The position numbers and the translations under genes were made by a program. A DNA stretch of 64,000 bases from Allomuricauda sp. CP2A (lineage in GTDB: Bacteria > Bacteroidota > Bacteroidia > Flavobacteriales > Flavobacteriaceae), in the NCBI RefSeq assembly GCF_001683915.1, contig NZ_LXTT01000117.1, positions 1 to 64,000 of the forward strand, in the 5' to 3' direction. How positions within the stretch are numbered: the first letter of the stretch is position 1; the number at the start of each line of letters is the position of its first letter. The notes beneath the pieces are model-generated. The model made no database searches. It saw only the letters and a program-made list of their open reading frames with translations, and had not been told where the DNA came from. Positions 1-36,320 of the stretch are shown piece after piece.

Positions 1-21
1 ATTTGATATATAGCTTATGAA

Positions 22-67
22 GCTCATAACCCGAAGGTCACTGGTTCGAGTCCAGTCCCCGCTACTA
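22..67 (+). tRNA. 3' half of initiator tRNA-Met (CAU), 5' half absent: probable att-site scar
   Basis: From position 22 the sequence matches a tRNA 3' half: anticodon loop 23-29 with CAT at 25-27, 3' anticodon strand CCCGA at 30-34 (the CCC is the initiator hallmark), a perfect 5-bp T stem (40-44 with 52-56), acceptor strand CCCCGCT at 57-63 and discriminator A64, followed by CTA instead of an encoded CCA. The 5' anticodon strand should be TCGGG, but bases 18-22 read TGAAG and pair only at the two ends. The bases further left are AT-rich and do not resemble a D arm. A functional tRNA is therefore unlikely. The displaced 3' end is what site-specific integration into a tRNA gene leaves at the far border of an island. 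Missing context left of the window is the main uncertainty. Confidence 0.72.
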
Positions 68-76
68 AGTCAGAAG

Positions 77-99
77 CCGTTCAATTGAACGGTTTTTTT
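77..99 (+). terminator. Intrinsic terminator after the tRNA fragment
   Basis: A perfect 16-nt palindrome (CCGTTCAATTGAACGG, 77-92) is followed directly by seven T residues. It lies 10 nt after the tRNA 3' end and is most simply the original terminator of the tRNA gene, retained beside the 3' fragment. Confidence 0.75.
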
Positions 100-227
100 G
101 TTTCTACTAAAAGCTATTGAAAAATGGCCCCTCTACGTTCCCATATCCCTAAACATAGAAAAACCTGTATTTTTAAGGGGTTAGGTGGTATTTTGACAAT
201 ATTCTAAGCGACCCTTTTAGCCAATCA

Positions 228-1067
228 TCAGTTTTTCAACCTTACCCGGGCAAAAACTGGTAGATGGTCTGAAGGATATCTCAGGTCTTTGGAGTCGCTC
301 AAAATAGCACTTTTAAGCACCTCAATAGTATTAGGGGAAACAAAAATATAGTCGATTCTTCGTTCCACGGGTTTGGTGAAATCAAAGCCATTGAAAGTTC
401 CATTGGGCCCAAAAGCATCTTTCCCTGCCGCTATGTGGGCATCTTCCATTTCCCCTAAAATCACCTGAACGCCCGGGCTATCACTTTCCAGATTAAAGTC
501 GCCCATTAAGATTACAGCTAATCCATCTGGATTCAGCTCCTTAATTTTTTCGAGAATCAATTTGGAACTTTCTTCCCTAGCCTTCACCCCAACATGGTCA
601 AAATGGGTGTTGAAAACCATGAATTTGTTCCCATCTTCCTTATTTTCAAAAAGCCCGTAGGTGCAGATTCGTGGTAAAGCGGCATCCCATCCTTTGGATG
701 GAACCTCTGGCGTTTGCGACAACCAAAAGGTAGATTGTTCCAATACCTTCAGCTTTTTCGTATTGTAGAAAATAGCTGTAAACTCGCCTTGATCATCTCC
801 ATGGTCCCGTCCCACACCAAAATAGGTGTAATCTTGCAGGCCATCATCAATAGCCTTTAATTGGTGGGCAAGCCCCTCTTGGGTTCCAAAAATATCGGGG
901 GCGTAAAAATTTAGTTGTGCAATGAGAAAATCCTTGCGGTTATCCCAATGATTTGGTTTATCGTTAGGATTGTCATACCGAATATTATAGGAAATAACAT
1001 CTACGTTTTGACCATTAGCATTCAATAGGATGCCCAAAACAAATAGGATCAGTATGCTTTTTTTCAT
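228..1067 (-). CDS. Secreted endonuclease/exonuclease/phosphatase (EEP) family hydrolase
   Basis: This 279-residue protein has an N-terminal signal peptide ending near residue 20 (LLNANGQ). The metal-dependent EEP fold is recognisable from its motifs: N28 in SYNIRYD, E64 in GTQEG, H155 in NTHFDH, GDFN at 189-192, D239 in RRIDYIF and the terminal SDH at 266-268. All core catalytic positions are present, so it should be an active phosphodiesterase or phosphatase acting outside the cytoplasm. The substrate cannot be read from sequence; family members cleave nucleic acids, sphingolipids or inositol phosphates. It stands alone, divergent from the PQQ dehydrogenase, and is the first complete gene right of the tRNA scar. 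Confidence 0.9.
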   Translation of the reverse strand: MKKSILILFVLGILLNANGQNVDVISYNIRYDNPNDKPNHWDNRKDFLIAQLNFYAPDIFGTQEGLAHQLKAIDDGLQDYTYFGVGRDHGDDQGEFTAIFYNTKKLKVLEQSTFWLSQTPEVPSKGWDAALPRICTYGLFENKEDGNKFMVFNTHFDHVGVKAREESSKLILEKIKELNPDGLAVILMGDFNLESDSPGVQVILGEMEDAHIAAGKDAFGPNGTFNGFDFTKPVERRIDYIFVSPNTIEVLKSAILSDSKDLRYPSDHLPVFARVRLKN

Positions 1068-1364
1068 TGAATGAATATTTTCTTCGTTTTTTGTTTTTCT
1101 TTTGAGAATCTTTTAAACCCCTTGCAGGACACTATCAATAAACCGCAAGCTATCCATTTTTTGGTGTTTTTAGGTTACAATATCTTTATATTTTCATATT
1201 GGTTGCGGTCCATAAAAAACCCTCAATCTGAATCAAGATCGCCCAGATTTCCCAAATAAATTGTATTTTTCACACCGTAAAATACCTAGACGCCCTTAGG
1301 TGTTTTATTCCAGAGCAACGATAGAAAGGGCCAAAGCCATAAGAATGAATAATTCTAACAAACA
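1068..1364. other. Divergent intergenic region, no convincing gene
   Basis: This 297-nt AT-rich spacer separates two divergent genes and should hold both promoters. No clear TAnnTTTG box was found. A 62-codon plus-strand frame at 1071-1259 has no recognisable family and an unremarkable composition. A hairpin (1279-1288 with 1297-1306, 9 of 10 bp, followed by TTTTATT) lies downstream of that frame and about 60 nt before the PQQ gene; it could be an attenuator or the end of a short transcript. Confidence 0.5.
1279..1306 (+). terminator. Hairpin with T-rich tail upstream of the PQQ dehydrogenase
   Basis: AAAATACCTA (1279-1288) pairs with TAGGTGTTTT (1297-1306) with one G-T wobble, and a T-rich tract follows. 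It sits in the leader of the downstream gene with no clear upstream plus-strand gene, so it may end a short leader transcript or be a leader structure. Confidence 0.4.
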
Positions 1365-3602
1365 ATGCATGCACGTTTCTCTGCTACTTTTTTTACATCA
1401 TTAACTTTTTTTACAATCATTTTAGTAGTCGGATGTAGTTCCGAAAAAACCGAAAATCCACATACCACTTGGACACATTATGGCGGTTCCCCCGACCAGT
1501 CCCGATACTTTGAAGCTTCCGAGATCACCAAAGAAAATGTTGATGAAATGGAAGTTGCATGGGTCTACCCCACGGGGGATGAATTCAATTTCTTTAGTCC
1601 CATCATTGTGGATTCCACCATGTACGTCCTTGGAAAAAGCAATTCCCTTATTGCCCTAAATGCAAGGACAGGTGAAGAAATATGGATCCATGCCAATCTA
1701 AAGGGAATAACCCGAAGAGGTATCAATTACTGGGAAAGTCAGGATAAAAAGGACAAAAGATTACTGTTTACCTTGAACAATTCCCTACAGGCCATTGATG
1801 CCACTACGGGAAAATCGATCACGGATTTTGGGGATGGTGGTTATGTTGATCTTCGGAAAGATTTGGGCAGGGACCCATCGACCATTGTACGAATTCAAGC
1901 AATGATGCCCGGGGTCCTATATAACGATCTTCTCATTTTAGGTTCCTCAACCGGTGAAACCTATTTTTCCCCGCCCGGGCATATAAGGGCCTATAATGTG
2001 GTGACCGGGGAATTGGAATGGACTTTTCATACCATTCCCCATCCTGGAGAATATGGTTATGACACCTGGCCCAAAGAAGCCTATAAATATGTTGGGGGTA
2101 CCAATGCTTGGAGTGAAATATCGGTTGATGAAGAACGTGGCATCGCCTTTGTACCTCTTGGATCACCAACTTACGACTATTATGGTGCAGACCGGTTGGG
2201 GAGCAATCTCTTTGCCAACTCATTGGTTGCCTTGGATGCCCGTACCGGTGAACGTCTTTGGCATTTTCAAACCATTCACCACGACCTTTGGGATTACGAT
2301 CTTGCCAGTGCTCCGCAATTGCTTACGGTGAAACGTGGCGGCAAATCCATAGATGCGGTTGCCGTTGCCACCAAACAGGGTTTTGTTTTTGTTTTTGACC
2401 GTGTAACCGGCGAACCCATATTCCCCATTGAGGAAAAACCCTTTCCCCCGAGCAATATGCCCGGTGAAAAAGCTTGGCCAACACAACCCATACCTTCGCT
2501 TCCAAGTTTTACCAGACATGAAGTGAACCTTGATAATCTAAATCCCTATTTTCCGGATAGTATCAAGCAAGCATGGCATAAACGATTGGATTCTTCCAAA
2601 TCCCAGCTATATCTTCCTCCATCCGACAAATATGAAACAGTTGTGATGCCGGGAGCTTTGGGCGGGGTTAATTTTGGAAACACGGCCGGTGATCCATTCG
2701 ATGGGATCATGTACATCATGACCCAAGAATATGCTTCAACCTATCGATTGAACAAGGTTGAGCCTCCCAAGGAGGACCTTTCCCAAAATGATGTGGAAAG
2801 GGTACAGAACCTATATAGTTCTTCATGTATTGCCTGCCATGGACAAAACATGGAGGGTGGTGCAGGTCCCTCACTCTTGAACATTGGGCACCATATGAGG
2901 TACGATGACTTTAAGGAAATTGTGACAAACGGTCGTGGCCAAATGCCAGGACTGGTCCATGTGGATGAAGAATCCCTTAAGGCCTTGTTCAAATTTTTGG
3001 GTGGAAATCCTGTTAGCAATCCTTTTAGAAGAGGAAATACTGAAGAGAGCATTCCGGAAGGGCCTGTTGTGGCCTCAGGAGGTGTTGAGATGAGACCAGA
3101 TGCCCAAAGAGGTGCTCCCATGAAGGATTATCCGGAAGGCGCAGACCGTCCTGATGCACAATACACTACGGAATATGGACTGGATTGGCCTGCCCTTATT
3201 GACCCGCCTTGGTCATCCGTTGTAGCCTATGATCTTAACGAGGGTACCATTAAGTGGAAAAAACCTGTGGGAATCGATTCCCTTTATGCCAAAGGCGACC
3301 CCAGCAAAGGTGCTCCAGAGGGAGTCCGACGGAAAGGTTTGGTGGTTACTTCCACAGGATTGGTCTTTGCAACCGCAAAGGGTGCAAAATTGTACGCTTT
3401 TGACCAAGACACTGGAGAAACCTTATGGGAAACCACTATGAGCCACGAAACAAACGCCCAACCTAGTATGTACACCCTAAATGGCAAACAATACTTGGTT
3501 GTGAACGCCAATTCCAATTTTTTTCGAGGTACGTATGACCAGTCCAAGAAACCTGGCGCATTACCAAGAGGGTATGTGGTATATGCATTACCTGAAAAAT
3601 AA
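1365..3602 (+). CDS. PQQ-dependent dehydrogenase lipoprotein with inserted cytochrome c domain
   Basis: This 745-residue quinoprotein of the PQQ-dependent glucose/alcohol dehydrogenase type has a lipoprotein signal with lipobox VVGC (C24). The propeller starts at about residue 34 (WTHYGGSPDQSRY), with repeated tryptophan-docking motifs such as ALNARTGEEIW and ALDARTGERLWHF. A class I cytochrome c domain lies at roughly 475-545, with heme motif CIACH at 488-492 and a likely Met ligand in GRGQMPGL. The propeller then resumes to the C terminus (WSSVVAYDLNEGTIKW). The predicted role is periplasmic oxidation of a sugar or alcohol with electrons passed through the in-chain heme. PQQ synthesis genes are not in the window. 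It is followed 72 nt later by a secreted cupin protein, a possible partner. Confidence 0.88.
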   Translation: MHARFSATFFTSLTFFTIILVVGCSSEKTENPHTTWTHYGGSPDQSRYFEASEITKENVDEMEVAWVYPTGDEFNFFSPIIVDSTMYVLGKSNSLIALNARTGEEIWIHANLKGITRRGINYWESQDKKDKRLLFTLNNSLQAIDATTGKSITDFGDGGYVDLRKDLGRDPSTIVRIQAMMPGVLYNDLLILGSSTGETYFSPPGHIRAYNVVTGELEWTFHTIPHPGEYGYDTWPKEAYKYVGGTNAWSEISVDEERGIAFVPLGSPTYDYYGADRLGSNLFANSLVALDARTGERLWHFQTIHHDLWDYDLASAPQLLTVKRGGKSIDAVAVATKQGFVFVFDRVTGEPIFPIEEKPFPPSNMPGEKAWPTQPIPSLPSFTRHEVNLDNLNPYFPDSIKQAWHKRLDSSKSQLYLPPSDKYETVVMPGALGGVNFGNTAGDPFDGIMYIMTQEYASTYRLNKVEPPKEDLSQNDVERVQNLYSSSCIACHGQNMEGGAGPSLLNIGHHMRYDDFKEIVTNGRGQMPGLVHVDEESLKALFKFLGGNPVSNPFRRGNTEESIPEGPVVASGGVEMRPDAQRGAPMKDYPEGADRPDAQYTTEYGLDWPALIDPPWSSVVAYDLNEGTIKWKKPVGIDSLYAKGDPSKGAPEGVRRKGLVVTSTGLVFATAKGAKLYAFDQDTGETLWETTMSHETNAQPSMYTLNGKQYLVVNANSNFFRGTYDQSKKPGALPRGYVVYALPEK

Positions 3603-8787: not shown

Positions 8788-10113
8788 TTAAAAATCCACA
8801 TTGAGGAGCTGCCCACTGATCTGCAACATTTGCAATTCGGCGAGTTTGGCATTGTACTTGGCCTGGCTTTTGGCCAGTTCAGCATTCAACAGGTTCAATT
8901 GTGCCTGCCTGAACTCAATGGAGGTTACTTGCCCCAATTGGTACCGTTCATCGGTTCGGTTAAAGTTGTTTTGGTTGGTCTGCAGGTTTTTTTCCTGCAC
9001 TTCCAATACGTAAAGGGCATTGGTGTAGCTGTCCCAAGCATTACGAATGTCCCGTTCCACCTCCAATTCTATCTGTTTTTTGAACAGTTCTTGGTTCTCA
9101 TAGGTGATTTTGGCATTTTTCGCGCCCGTAATCGCCCTTCCGCCATCAAAGAGGTTCCAGCTTAGATTAATGGCTCCCGAGACCCCTGTGGATGTATTTT
9201 GAAGGGAAAATGCAAGCGGACTGTTGTTGGTGGACTCATTCCAACCATAGGTCCCGGTAAGTCCGATGGTAGGCAAGAAATTGCTTCTGGCCACTTTCAT
9301 GTTGTAATTGCTGATGTTGATGTCTTTTTCAACGATTTGCAGCCGAACATTATTTATTTTGGCTTCGTTGTGCATATTTTCCATCTCTAACCCTGGCACA
9401 AAGTTAACTGTGGTATCTATTTCAAATTGGGTGGAAAGTTCCCGGTTCAGGATAAGATTCAAATCTCGCATGGTATTGCGCAATTGCTGTCTGGAGTTCA
9501 ATAGATTGATACTGTCCGTATTGATGTCCACCTCAGCGTTCAACACATCCAAACCTGTATTTTGTCCATATTCAAATTGATAGCGTGCCCTTGTGAGCCT
9601 ATCTTTTGAAATTTCAAGGGCTTCCTCCAAATTAGCGGTGTTCTCGGTCAATCGGGCCACTTCATAATAGACGGAGAAAAGCTGTAAAATGGTCGTCTCA
9701 ATGGTCTGTTTTACTTCCAATTCCGACTGCTGGGAACGCTCCTTGAAGCTTTGATAGTTGTAATAGCGTCCTAAACCATCAAACAAGGTGTAATTAAGAT
9801 TGAGGGAAGCATTGTACCTTCGGGTTTCAGCTCCATCCGCGGTACGCGTCTCACCATTTGCCAACACTCCCTCGGTGTTCTGGCGGTCAATGGTACCCGT
9901 TCCATTTGCCGTAAGGGTGGGCAAATAACCAGAATTGAGAATACTGGCATTGTTTTCATCAATTCTTTTGGTGTTTCGGGCCACTTGAATGCCCAAATTG
10001 TTTTCCAGCACCAAATCTATGGCCTCTTCCTTGGAAAGGGTCTCTTCCTGGGCTTGTGCTGCATGACCAAAAAACAATAAAAAAAGGGGTAGCGTATAAA
10101 AAATACTTTTCAT
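8788..10113 (-). CDS. TolC-family outer-membrane efflux protein
   Basis: This 441-residue protein has a signal peptide (about 1-21, ending HAAQA) and two repeats of the outer membrane efflux protein domain. These are long coiled-coil helices with the conserved segments SLNLNYTLFDGLGR in the first half and AINLSWNLFDGGRA in the second. It should trimerise into the outer-membrane channel of the pump encoded directly upstream. Its start codon overlaps the last base of the RND gene, so the two genes are translationally coupled. Confidence 0.92.
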   Translation of the reverse strand: MKSIFYTLPLFLLFFGHAAQAQEETLSKEEAIDLVLENNLGIQVARNTKRIDENNASILNSGYLPTLTANGTGTIDRQNTEGVLANGETRTADGAETRRYNASLNLNYTLFDGLGRYYNYQSFKERSQQSELEVKQTIETTILQLFSVYYEVARLTENTANLEEALEISKDRLTRARYQFEYGQNTGLDVLNAEVDINTDSINLLNSRQQLRNTMRDLNLILNRELSTQFEIDTTVNFVPGLEMENMHNEAKINNVRLQIVEKDINISNYNMKVARSNFLPTIGLTGTYGWNESTNNSPLAFSLQNTSTGVSGAINLSWNLFDGGRAITGAKNAKITYENQELFKKQIELEVERDIRNAWDSYTNALYVLEVQEKNLQTNQNNFNRTDERYQLGQVTSIEFRQAQLNLLNAELAKSQAKYNAKLAELQMLQISGQLLNVDF

Positions 10114-32285: not shown

Positions 32286-32813
32286 ATGAAAATGAAGAAA
32301 AAAATTGGTTTTAAGATTGGCCTTCTTACTTTGGTCTTGAGTCTATATAGTTGTGGTGCCTATAACTTTTCTGGTGCCGATATTGGAACGGCTACGACCT
32401 TTCAGGTGAATTTCTTCCAGAATTATGCCGATCAGACCCCAAGGTCGGTCATTGTTCCTGGTTTGGACCGTGATTTTACGTTGGCCCTGCAGGATATGAT
32501 CAACAATCTCACCAGTCTCTCCCTCACGGGAAGCAATGGGGATTTGTTGTACGAAGGGGAAATTGTGGAATACAAGGTGGTGCCCATGACCGCAACTGCC
32601 GATCAACGAACAGCACAAAACCGGCTCACCATGAGTGTGAACGTGCGGTTTTTTAACAATACCAAGGAAGATGCGGATTTTGAACGTCGTTTTTCCTTTT
32701 TTTACGATTTTGATGCAGCAGCTTCCTTAACATCGGTTCAGGCAGCGGCCCACGAAGAAATCTTTGAACGGCTCACCCAGGATATTTTTAATGCCTCCTT
32801 GGGAAATTGGTAA
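32286..32813 (+). CDS. lptE: LptE-like LPS-assembly lipoprotein
   Basis: This 175-residue protein starts at the ATG at 32286; alternatives lie at 32277 and 32292, and an upstream in-frame start at 32181 would sit inside the activator gene. The lipobox is LYSC (C23). The mature domain (VPGLDRDFTLALQDMINNLTSLSL, then GEIVEYKVVPMTATADQRTAQNRLTM) matches the Bacteroidota LptE family, the lipoprotein plug of the LptD translocon. It begins 22 nt after the sigma-54 activator. Confidence 0.88.
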   Translation: MKMKKKIGFKIGLLTLVLSLYSCGAYNFSGADIGTATTFQVNFFQNYADQTPRSVIVPGLDRDFTLALQDMINNLTSLSLTGSNGDLLYEGEIVEYKVVPMTATADQRTAQNRLTMSVNVRFFNNTKEDADFERRFSFFYDFDAAASLTSVQAAAHEEIFERLTQDIFNASLGNW

Positions 32814-32818
32814 CAACT

Positions 32819-33733
32819 ATGAACGTATCGGATTTTATACAGATTCTTCAAAACTCAAATACCATCCTGTCCCCAAAACAGACACGGGAACTGGAGGATA
32901 TCATTGAAGAGTATCCCTATTTTCAGGCTGCCAGGGCTTTGCATTTGAAGGGGCTAAAAAATCTTGATAGCTACAAATACAACAACGCCTTAAAAGTTGC
33001 TGCGGCCCATACTGCGGATAGGGACGTACTTTTCGATTACATCACATCGCAGGAATTTGTCCAAAACAACATTGCCGACACCATTGCTGGGCGACGGTCA
33101 AAGCTTGAGGATCAAAATGCCATTTCCGAAGAAATTGAGCCCAGTGAAAATGTTAATGCCATGTTGGTTGAGGCCGAAGAGGTGGCACTCCCCCAAAACA
33201 TCCAGGATGCAGAGCAGATATTGAACCCGGCACTGTTCAAATCCAAAACTCCTGAAAAAGTTGAAGAGGAAGAGGAGAAAAAAGAGGAACCCTCTAAGGT
33301 CCAAAAAGAGACCACACCCGAAACCGACCTACAACTGGGCAAACCCATTCCCTTTACCAAAAAGGAAAAACATTCCTTTACCGAATGGTTGCAATTGACC
33401 TCCAAAACTGTGGAGCAGGAGGAACCCGAGGAGGATGTGATGGAAGAATTGGAAAAGAAGAAAAAATTTGAACTTTTGGATAAGTTCATCGAGAACAACC
33501 CCAAGATCGTCCCCGTCGAAAAGTCAACTCCAAAAGTGAACATTAAGGATTCAAACAAGTTCGATAATAACGAACTGATGACCGAGACACTTGCCAAGGT
33601 GTATCTCGAACAAAAAAAGTACAAAAAAGCCATTCAGGCCTTCAAAATATTGAGTTTGAAATATCCAGAAAAAAGTGGTTTCTTTGCAGATCAAATTCGG
33701 GCGGTGAAGAAGCTGCAGAAAGAAAAAGAATAA
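32819..33733 (+). CDS. Conserved Flavobacteriia protein with C-terminal TPR
   Basis: This 304-residue protein starts at the ATG at 32819 (MNVSDFIQILQ), 5 nt after lptE; an in-frame TTG at 32807 lies inside lptE. The N-terminal 100 residues are helical. A Glu- and Lys-rich low-complexity stretch follows at about 130-210. The C terminus has one TPR-like pair (LAKVYLEQKKYKKAIQAFKILSLKYPEKSG). No catalytic motif is visible. It is cytoplasmic by prediction, and its position between lptE and secG suggests an envelope-biogenesis accessory role. Function unknown. Confidence 0.8.
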   Translation: MNVSDFIQILQNSNTILSPKQTRELEDIIEEYPYFQAARALHLKGLKNLDSYKYNNALKVAAAHTADRDVLFDYITSQEFVQNNIADTIAGRRSKLEDQNAISEEIEPSENVNAMLVEAEEVALPQNIQDAEQILNPALFKSKTPEKVEEEEEKKEEPSKVQKETTPETDLQLGKPIPFTKKEKHSFTEWLQLTSKTVEQEEPEEDVMEELEKKKKFELLDKFIENNPKIVPVEKSTPKVNIKDSNKFDNNELMTETLAKVYLEQKKYKKAIQAFKILSLKYPEKSGFFADQIRAVKKLQKEKE

Positions 33734-33742
33734 GATAAAAAA

Positions 33743-34111
33743 ATGAGCACGTTTACAATTTTTTTGATATTGATCATTATCGTGTGCCTTTTGTTGGTAT
33801 TGGTCATTATGGTCCAAAACCCTAAAGGAGGTGGGTTGTCCTCATCTTTTGGAGGTGGTGGAAACCAAGTTGTGGGAGGTGTAAAAAAGACTGGGGATTT
33901 TTTGGATAAAAGTACCTGGACCCTTGCCACATTATTAATTGTATTGATTCTTTTGTCCAATGTTTCCCTAAAGGGAAGCTACAGTCAGGCAGATTCAAAA
34001 TTGTTGCAGGGCGATGATACGGAGGCCACTGTTCCAGAAACAGTCCCCGAGGAAGTTCCTGAGCAACTTCCGCCAACTGACAGTGCCGATCCAACGGACA
34101 CCATCAATTAA
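33743..34111 (+). CDS. secG: Preprotein translocase subunit SecG
   Basis: This 122-residue membrane protein has two transmembrane helices (about 2-22 and 56-72) joined by a glycine-rich loop with the SecG signature VQNPKGGGLSSSFGGG. An acidic, proline-rich tail (after about 90) is typical of the Bacteroidota version. It stimulates SecYEG translocation. It lies 9 nt after the TPR gene and is followed by a strong terminator. Confidence 0.95.
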   Translation: MSTFTIFLILIIIVCLLLVLVIMVQNPKGGGLSSSFGGGGNQVVGGVKKTGDFLDKSTWTLATLLIVLILLSNVSLKGSYSQADSKLLQGDDTEATVPETVPEEVPEQLPPTDSADPTDTIN

Positions 34112-34162: not shown

Positions 34163-34189
34163 GTTTTCCATAATGTCAGTTTTTGGGCA

Positions 34190-34206
34190 TTGGCACAATT
34201 TCTGCC
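34190..34206 (+). promoter_or_regulatory. Sigma-54-like -24/-12 element upstream of groS
   Basis: TTGGCAC (34190-34196) is followed by GC at 34204-34205, with exactly 10 nt between the GG (34192-34193) and the GC, the sigma-54 spacing. The -12 part reads CTGCC instead of TTGCA/T, so it is imperfect. The expected start, about 12 nt downstream, leaves a leader near 35 nt before the groS ATG. No CIRCE repeat was seen here. A sigma-54 activator gene lies about 2 kb upstream. Confidence 0.45.
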
Positions 34207-34252
34207 CCCATCTTTCGAGAATTTTTAAACCAAATACATAAAAATTATAAAT

Positions 34253-34531
34253 ATGGCTAAAGTTAATATCAAACCATTGGCAGACAGGGTTCTTATTGAG
34301 CCACTACAGGCCGAGACCAAAACTGCCTCCGGTATCATCATCCCGGACAACGCAAAGGAAAAACCTCAAAAAGGCAACGTAGTAGCCGTTGGACCCGGAA
34401 CCAAAGATGAAAAAGTGACCCTTAAGGTTGGTGATACCGTACTATATGGAAAATATGCCGGTACCGAACTCAAATTGGACGGTATTGACTATTTGATGAT
34501 GCGCGAGAGCGATATTTTGGCAATAGTATAA
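34253..34531 (+). CDS. groS: Co-chaperonin GroES
   Basis: This 92-residue GroES of normal length carries the [23 protein letters not shown] segment and the mobile loop. It caps the GroEL ring during folding. It is followed by groL after 102 nt, most of which is a structured repeat. Confidence 0.98.
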
Positions 34532-34537
34532 TCAACA

Positions 34538-36265
<1,728 letters not shown>

Positions 36266-36292
36266 TAGCATCCCATTCGGATTAAAAATAGG

Positions 36293-36320
36293 AACGCCCC
36301 GATCTTCATCGGGGCGTTTT
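36293..36320 (+). terminator. Intrinsic terminator of groL
   Basis: An 11-bp GC-rich stem (36293-36303 with 36308-36318) with a 4-nt loop is followed by TTTTC-TTTTC. It is 28 nt after the groL stop. Confidence 0.88.

Follow-up and report, generated by a model that had tools for sequence, protein, structure and literature searches.

The first 67 bases of the window, as the whole analyzed stretch of 64,000 nucleotides from Allomuricauda sp. CP2A is called here, are very probably the distal junction (attR) of two elements, designated E1 and E2, that have integrated site-specifically and in tandem at the initiator tRNA gene (tRNA-fMet) of this Allomuricauda-group flavobacterium. In the proposed mechanism, the crossover made by a tyrosine integrase would fall within the anticodon loop, the tRNA 3' part carried by the newly arriving element would restore the gene at the left end, and the resident 3' part would be displaced to the right end. 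Two such rounds would give the order host, intact tRNA, E1, displaced half, E2, displaced half (window 22-67), host, for which we infer the contig order C12-C59-C37, C37 being the contig that contains the window. E1 is predicted to be mobilizable through its relaxase, and E2 would be stranded, its integrase appearing to be cut by an IS21-family element as assembled.

Displaced tRNA half at the start of the window

A 46-nt 3' part of tRNA-fMet occupies window 22-67 on the forward strand, beginning one base 5' of the anticodon loop and extending to the 3' end, and forms the core of the attR. All 46 positions agree with a copy on contig C59 of the same genome and with the corresponding stretch of the intact tRNA-fMet in the sister genome G027, and 45 of 46 agree with the intact tRNA-fMet on contig C12 of CP2A itself, with one A/G difference at about tRNA position 49. 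The intact C12 gene has G at this variable site and the C59, C37 and G027 copies have A. The G agrees with a 3' part that would have been donated by E1, which is weak evidence because the site is polymorphic in the genus. No tRNA was called by ARAGORN over the window, which excludes a complete tRNA-fMet ending at base 67. The Rfam search of the first 3 kb of the window returned no tRNA, just two sub-threshold chance hits to other families, and inspection of the letters upstream of base 22 revealed no tRNA 5' half. An earlier sequence-only reading, which took bases 22-67 for a tRNA-fMet 3' half and bases 1-21 for something other than tRNA, was borne out on both points, but the latter bases do resemble the right ends of integrated elements.

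Base 1 of the window is also base 1 of C37, which measures 85,363 bp and is one of the 173 contigs of the assembly, so that the left neighbor of the tRNA half is represented by 21 bases only. Compared in fixed register beside the displaced half, window 1-22 matches the element right ends of genomes G001 and G018 at 19 and 17 of 22 positions, respectively, against 5 to 11 of 22 for five other element right ends, and none of the 127,820 22-mers of the window (both strands) reaches 16 matches. The likeness to the G001 and G018 ends indicates that the left neighbor is the end of an integrated element, and window 1-21 (forward strand) is read as the terminal 21 bases of E2 on its right side, the remainder of that end lying past the contig start. 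The right end in genome G022, whose end repeat is that of E2, matches window 1-22 at just 11 of 22 positions.

To the right of the tRNA half, a hairpin and T run at 74-99 on the forward strand (inverted self-match at 74-95) is probably the native tRNA terminator. The first host gene rightward, at 228-1067 on the reverse strand, encodes a protein of 279 amino acids of the endonuclease/exonuclease/phosphatase family (PF03372). A TolC-like host gene follows at 8788-10113 on the reverse strand and, from translations compared by eye, is also present past the displaced half in G018.

Elements E1 and E2 in the CP2A genome

Copies of the tRNA are found on three separate contigs, the intact gene on C12, which is the sole intact tRNA-fMet fitting the search pattern in the assembly, and the fragments on C59 and C37. 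On the 5' side of the tRNA, C12 carries genes that, judged by their translations, appear to be era, der and that of a sodium/alanine symporter. Upstream of the intact gene, the 5' part of tRNA-fMet recurs in degenerate copies (L013:100-180 and L003:1660-1770), and also in G018. On the 3' side lie an end repeat and genes for a Schlafen/AlbA_2 protein, a MobA/VirD2-like relaxase (PF03432) and a NikA-like protein (PF21983), and E1 accordingly has the relaxase of its own by which an integrative and mobilizable element is recognized. Deeper on C12, E1 encodes SusC- and SusD-type proteins, GH92 and GH3 proteins, a ROK protein, a sugar transporter, a DUF4185 protein and a GntR-UTRA protein, a cargo that is read as a mannan-type polysaccharide locus.

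The displaced half on C59 is flanked on its two sides by different element ends. On one side, a tyrosine integrase assigned to E1 starts 170 bp off, and on the other lies an element left end. The E1 integrase is intact and has an arm-binding domain (Arm-DNA-bind_5, PF17293), a SAM-like domain (SAM_5, PF13102) and a catalytic domain (Phage_integrase, PF00589), the same three as the G018 integrase. The known parts of E1, which is incomplete, measure about 36.9 and 9.6 kb, and E2 is known for 14.5 kb as far as an IS21-family element. This insertion sequence, with IstB and rve domains, lies at C59:5150-7693 within the E2 integrase, of which only the last 123 residues adjoin it (C59:7662-8027; 94 % identical to G018). 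A search of the CP2A assembly with the G018 protein did not recover the first 321 residues of this integrase, nor was about 1.1 kb of the E2 right end found there. As assembled, E2 apparently could not excise by itself. The IS21-family element is present in multiple copies and breaks contigs, with five other contig ends (C31, C87, C113, C10 and C163), so that C59 past the IS21 may be a mis-join or a rearrangement.

The sequence-only reading had expected one element with an intact tRNA-fMet at its other end and a second copy of the 3' half next to an integrase gene. The intact gene (on C12) and the second half (on C59) both exist, but the elements are two in tandem rather than one, and in elements of this integrase family the integrase adjoins the displaced half (at about 170 bp), not the intact tRNA. 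Its general reading of the junction as an island border is supported by the further half copies, the intact tRNA-fMet, the integrase close to one of the halves and a related genome that lacks the insert.

Two further displaced 3' halves were observed inside E1 on C59, behind the integrase, one resembling tRNA-Leu(TAG) (L009:13722-13772) and one identical over 45 nt to tRNA-Asn (L009:13994-14038), each broken near the anticodon loop and then followed by a repeat of about 11-bp period. A similar layout is found at the tRNA-Leu of the same genome, with the intact gene on C71 (L133) and a displaced Leu half near an integrase on C16 (L132), the two sharing the repeat GGGTACAACATAGGTACAACA.

Comparison with related genomes

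The relative lacking the insert, which the sequence-only reading had called for, is the sister genome G027, whose near-empty site contains one extra gene. A single G027 contig carries the symporter (32,599-34,017), the intact tRNA (34,181-34,254) and the orthologue of the first gene of the window, the nuclease (35,461-36,297), all within 3.7 kb. The orthologue is 86 % identical and lies 1.2 kb from the intact tRNA-fMet, and window 232-2002 aligns to G027 at 84 %. Between the tRNA and the nuclease, G027 has about 1 kb, with one apparent gene, that is missing from the window.

A complete element is found in the congener G018, where one contig contains the symporter, the intact tRNA, a 13.3 kb element, the displaced half and host genes including the TolC-like gene. 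In G018 the fragment has the same orientation as the intact gene and the two bracket the insert on one contig; for CP2A, with its separate contigs, this arrangement is implied by the synteny of G027. The G018 element matches E2, the second element on C59, at 95 % over 234 bp of the left end and at 91 % over 1,095 bp of the recombinase end. Elsewhere in the G018 element, blastn matches were confined to the tRNA part and up to 308 bp around related integrase ends, indicating that the cargo DNA differs between the G018 element and that of CP2A.

Paired 11-bp repeats at the element ends

All seven elements readable at both ends carry an identical pair of 11-bp direct-repeat units at each end, with 20-23 nt in common between the two ends, and the longest string common to different repeat classes is at most 14 nt. 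Four of the seven have both ends on one contig (G016, G018, G020 and G028) and three were paired across contigs (E1 of CP2A, G001 and G022). The right end of E2 in CP2A is too short to show the repeat, and for a second G020 element the left end was obtained with no right partner. The C12 end and one C59 end share a 21-nt repeat, which identifies them as opposite ends of E1. At the other C59 end the repeat is of a 22-nt version, as in the right ends of G018, G001 and G022, and this, together with the likeness of window 1-22 to the G001 and G018 right ends, assigns the two ends of E2 to C59 and C37. An 11-bp period was also the best short-period repeat in 74 of 80 integrase upstream regions, compared with 3 of 1,600 shuffled ones.

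Alternative explanations

The location of C12, C59 and C37 on separate contigs would also suit a single island that has the C12 tRNA and the C37 half as its borders, with C59 holding an unrelated element from elsewhere in the chromosome. This account is improbable, since the C59 half, with a different element end on each side, is a tandem junction in itself, the two sides match the C12 end (21 nt) and the G018/G001-type right ends (22 nt) that window 1-22 resembles, and the assembly has a single intact tRNA-fMet matching the pattern. On the strength of the C59 junction and the end repeats, a single island was rejected. It is extremely unlikely that misassembly produced the 21 bases at the start of C37 and that the tRNA is complete in the cell. 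The truncation does fall at a contig end, and repeats of this genome do break contigs, but the first bases of the window match element right ends of two other genomes in fixed register, and G018 has the same arrangement inside one contig. A decayed tRNA duplicate formed with no mobile element involved, to which the degenerate 5'-part copies upstream of the intact gene in this lineage might point, is hardly credible either, because the break is at the anticodon loop, element sequence adjoins it and the insert is absent from G027. Both the contig-end artefact and the pseudogene were rejected on the right-end homology and the G018 locus.

The tandem array of E1 and E2 has points against it as well, namely the separate contigs, the missing part of the E2 integrase, the IS21 ends, the extra gene in G027, the 11/22 match of the G022 right end and the displaced halves in the genus that have no E1-type integrase nearby (8 of 15).

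Distribution in the genus and among named genomes

Across 36 genomes of the genus, including CP2A, the pattern of the tRNA-fMet 3' part gave 56 matches, comprising 16 displaced halves in 13 genomes and 40 copies with a tRNA 5' part, one of which (G002, C56) retains just 20 bases of the 5' part before the contig end. Fifteen displaced halves had upstream sequence, and seven of these have an E1-type integrase that starts 160-176 bp away and is oriented divergently. For the other eight, which are found in G009, G015, G020, G021, G025, G026 and G033, the sequence examined on the element side, mostly about 3 kb and in G025 12 kb, contained no E1-type integrase. In some of these eight a few more tRNA bases survive on the 5' side of the anticodon loop, and another recombinase or decay may be responsible.

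The integrase alignment was also used to scan named genomes, and the best 80 of 105 confirmed relatives were evaluated; at least three of these 80 (L171, L218 and L224) are contigs that also gave members of the query alignment. By their recognized names, the 80 loci are presumably from Bacteroidota, the exception being a contig of 4.4 kb that is recorded as part of an Oleispira metagenome bin. Among these best 80 of 105, 68 have a tRNA-fMet half 157-314 bp upstream of the integrase, its 5' part represented by no more than 17 of 31 bases, a half of another CAT-anticodon tRNA is present in nine, and neither type of half was found in three, one of which has only 321 bases upstream. A literature search for tRNA-Met attachment sites of integrative elements or integrases in Bacteroidetes found none; its thin coverage of subscription literature makes it weak on novelty.

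Integrase N-terminal domain and the repeat unit

Co-variation of the integrase with the repeat was analyzed in 73 of the 80 loci, seven being dropped for a repeat that did not fit the scoring or a short frame. The nearest neighbor has the same repeat unit for 66 of 73 loci when judged by the N-terminal domain, compared with 52 by the core-binding segment and 55 by the catalytic part. With the catalytic part controlled for, the partial rank correlation between the N-terminal domain and the repeat is 0.65; with the roles of the two parts exchanged it is 0.22, and none of 999 permutations reached the observed co-variation, in a test that ignores relatedness. Mean distances are 0.40 for the N-terminal domain, 0.46 for the core-binding segment and 0.29 for the catalytic part, so that a faster rate alone does not explain the co-variation of the N-terminal domain. 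The N-terminal codons adjoin the near repeat, and co-inheritance may therefore account for it.

The 11-bp units are candidate arm-type binding sites of the integrase. A wider proposal, put forward tentatively and given somewhat less than an even chance, is that a Bacteroidota-wide integrase subfamily specializes in CAT-anticodon tRNAs, with the anticodon loop as its target, and that a class-specific end code of paired 11-bp units, identical at the two ends of an element and read by the N-terminal arm-binding domain, may decide which integrase excises which tandem neighbor.

Relation to known elements and implications

Crossover in the anticodon loop with restoration of the tRNA is a classic mechanism of tDNA islands, as described in the available text of the Islander work (PMC4383910). 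The present elements resemble the islands described there in having a tyrosine integrase, a restored tRNA at one end and a displaced fragment at the other, in the anticodon-loop class. The CP2A genome has the intact tRNA and fragments of the same tRNA, on separate contigs, and an integrase within the island. The array may likewise correspond to the Islander tandem arrays, whose islands, in the same text, each have their own fragment and integrase: two fragments are present here, with an intact E1 integrase and an E2 integrase reduced to its last 123 residues next to the IS21. Unlike in the islands of that text, the integrase here adjoins the displaced fragment, and that of E2 is interrupted as assembled.

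The part of PMC5704250 that was available describes an accretion pattern in which integrative and mobilizable elements lie next to decayed ones in tandem, and E1, with its relaxase and NikA-like proteins and its decayed tandem neighbor, is similar. It differs from the elements in that part of the paper in its initiator tRNA target and polysaccharide-locus cargo, and its mobility is predicted from genes. According to the accessible portion of PMC8138268, CTnDOT-type integrases use their arm domains to bind arm sites in a subterminal position, and the E1 and G018 integrases have the domains of the IntCTnDOT subgroup, to which they may belong. Common to both are the occurrence in Bacteroidota and the arm-binding, SAM-like and catalytic domains, as in CTnDOT and NBU1; the CAT tRNA anticodon-loop target and the two 11-bp repeats at each end set the present elements apart from those in that portion, in which NBU1 uses a tRNA-Leu gene. 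The 10K island of Riemerella anatipestifer, for which integration and excision were shown by experiment (PMC6764341, available in part), is likewise flavobacterial with a tyrosine integrase at a tRNA gene, but it occupies a tRNA-Arg locus and has a 53-bp direct repeat.

The island border in a tandem array is well supported and of a kind already known, and it serves as a clear example of islands accreting in tandem in a marine flavobacterium, the cargo here being a polysaccharide locus. Of most interest are the end repeats and the way in which they co-vary with the integrase N-terminal domain. Matching pairs of 11-bp end repeats offer a simple means of pairing the ends of islands that are split across contigs. 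If the arm domain uses the repeats as a binding code, tandem arrays at a single tRNA would offer ready-made tests of which integrases are compatible, and in CP2A the integrase of E1 would not rescue E2.
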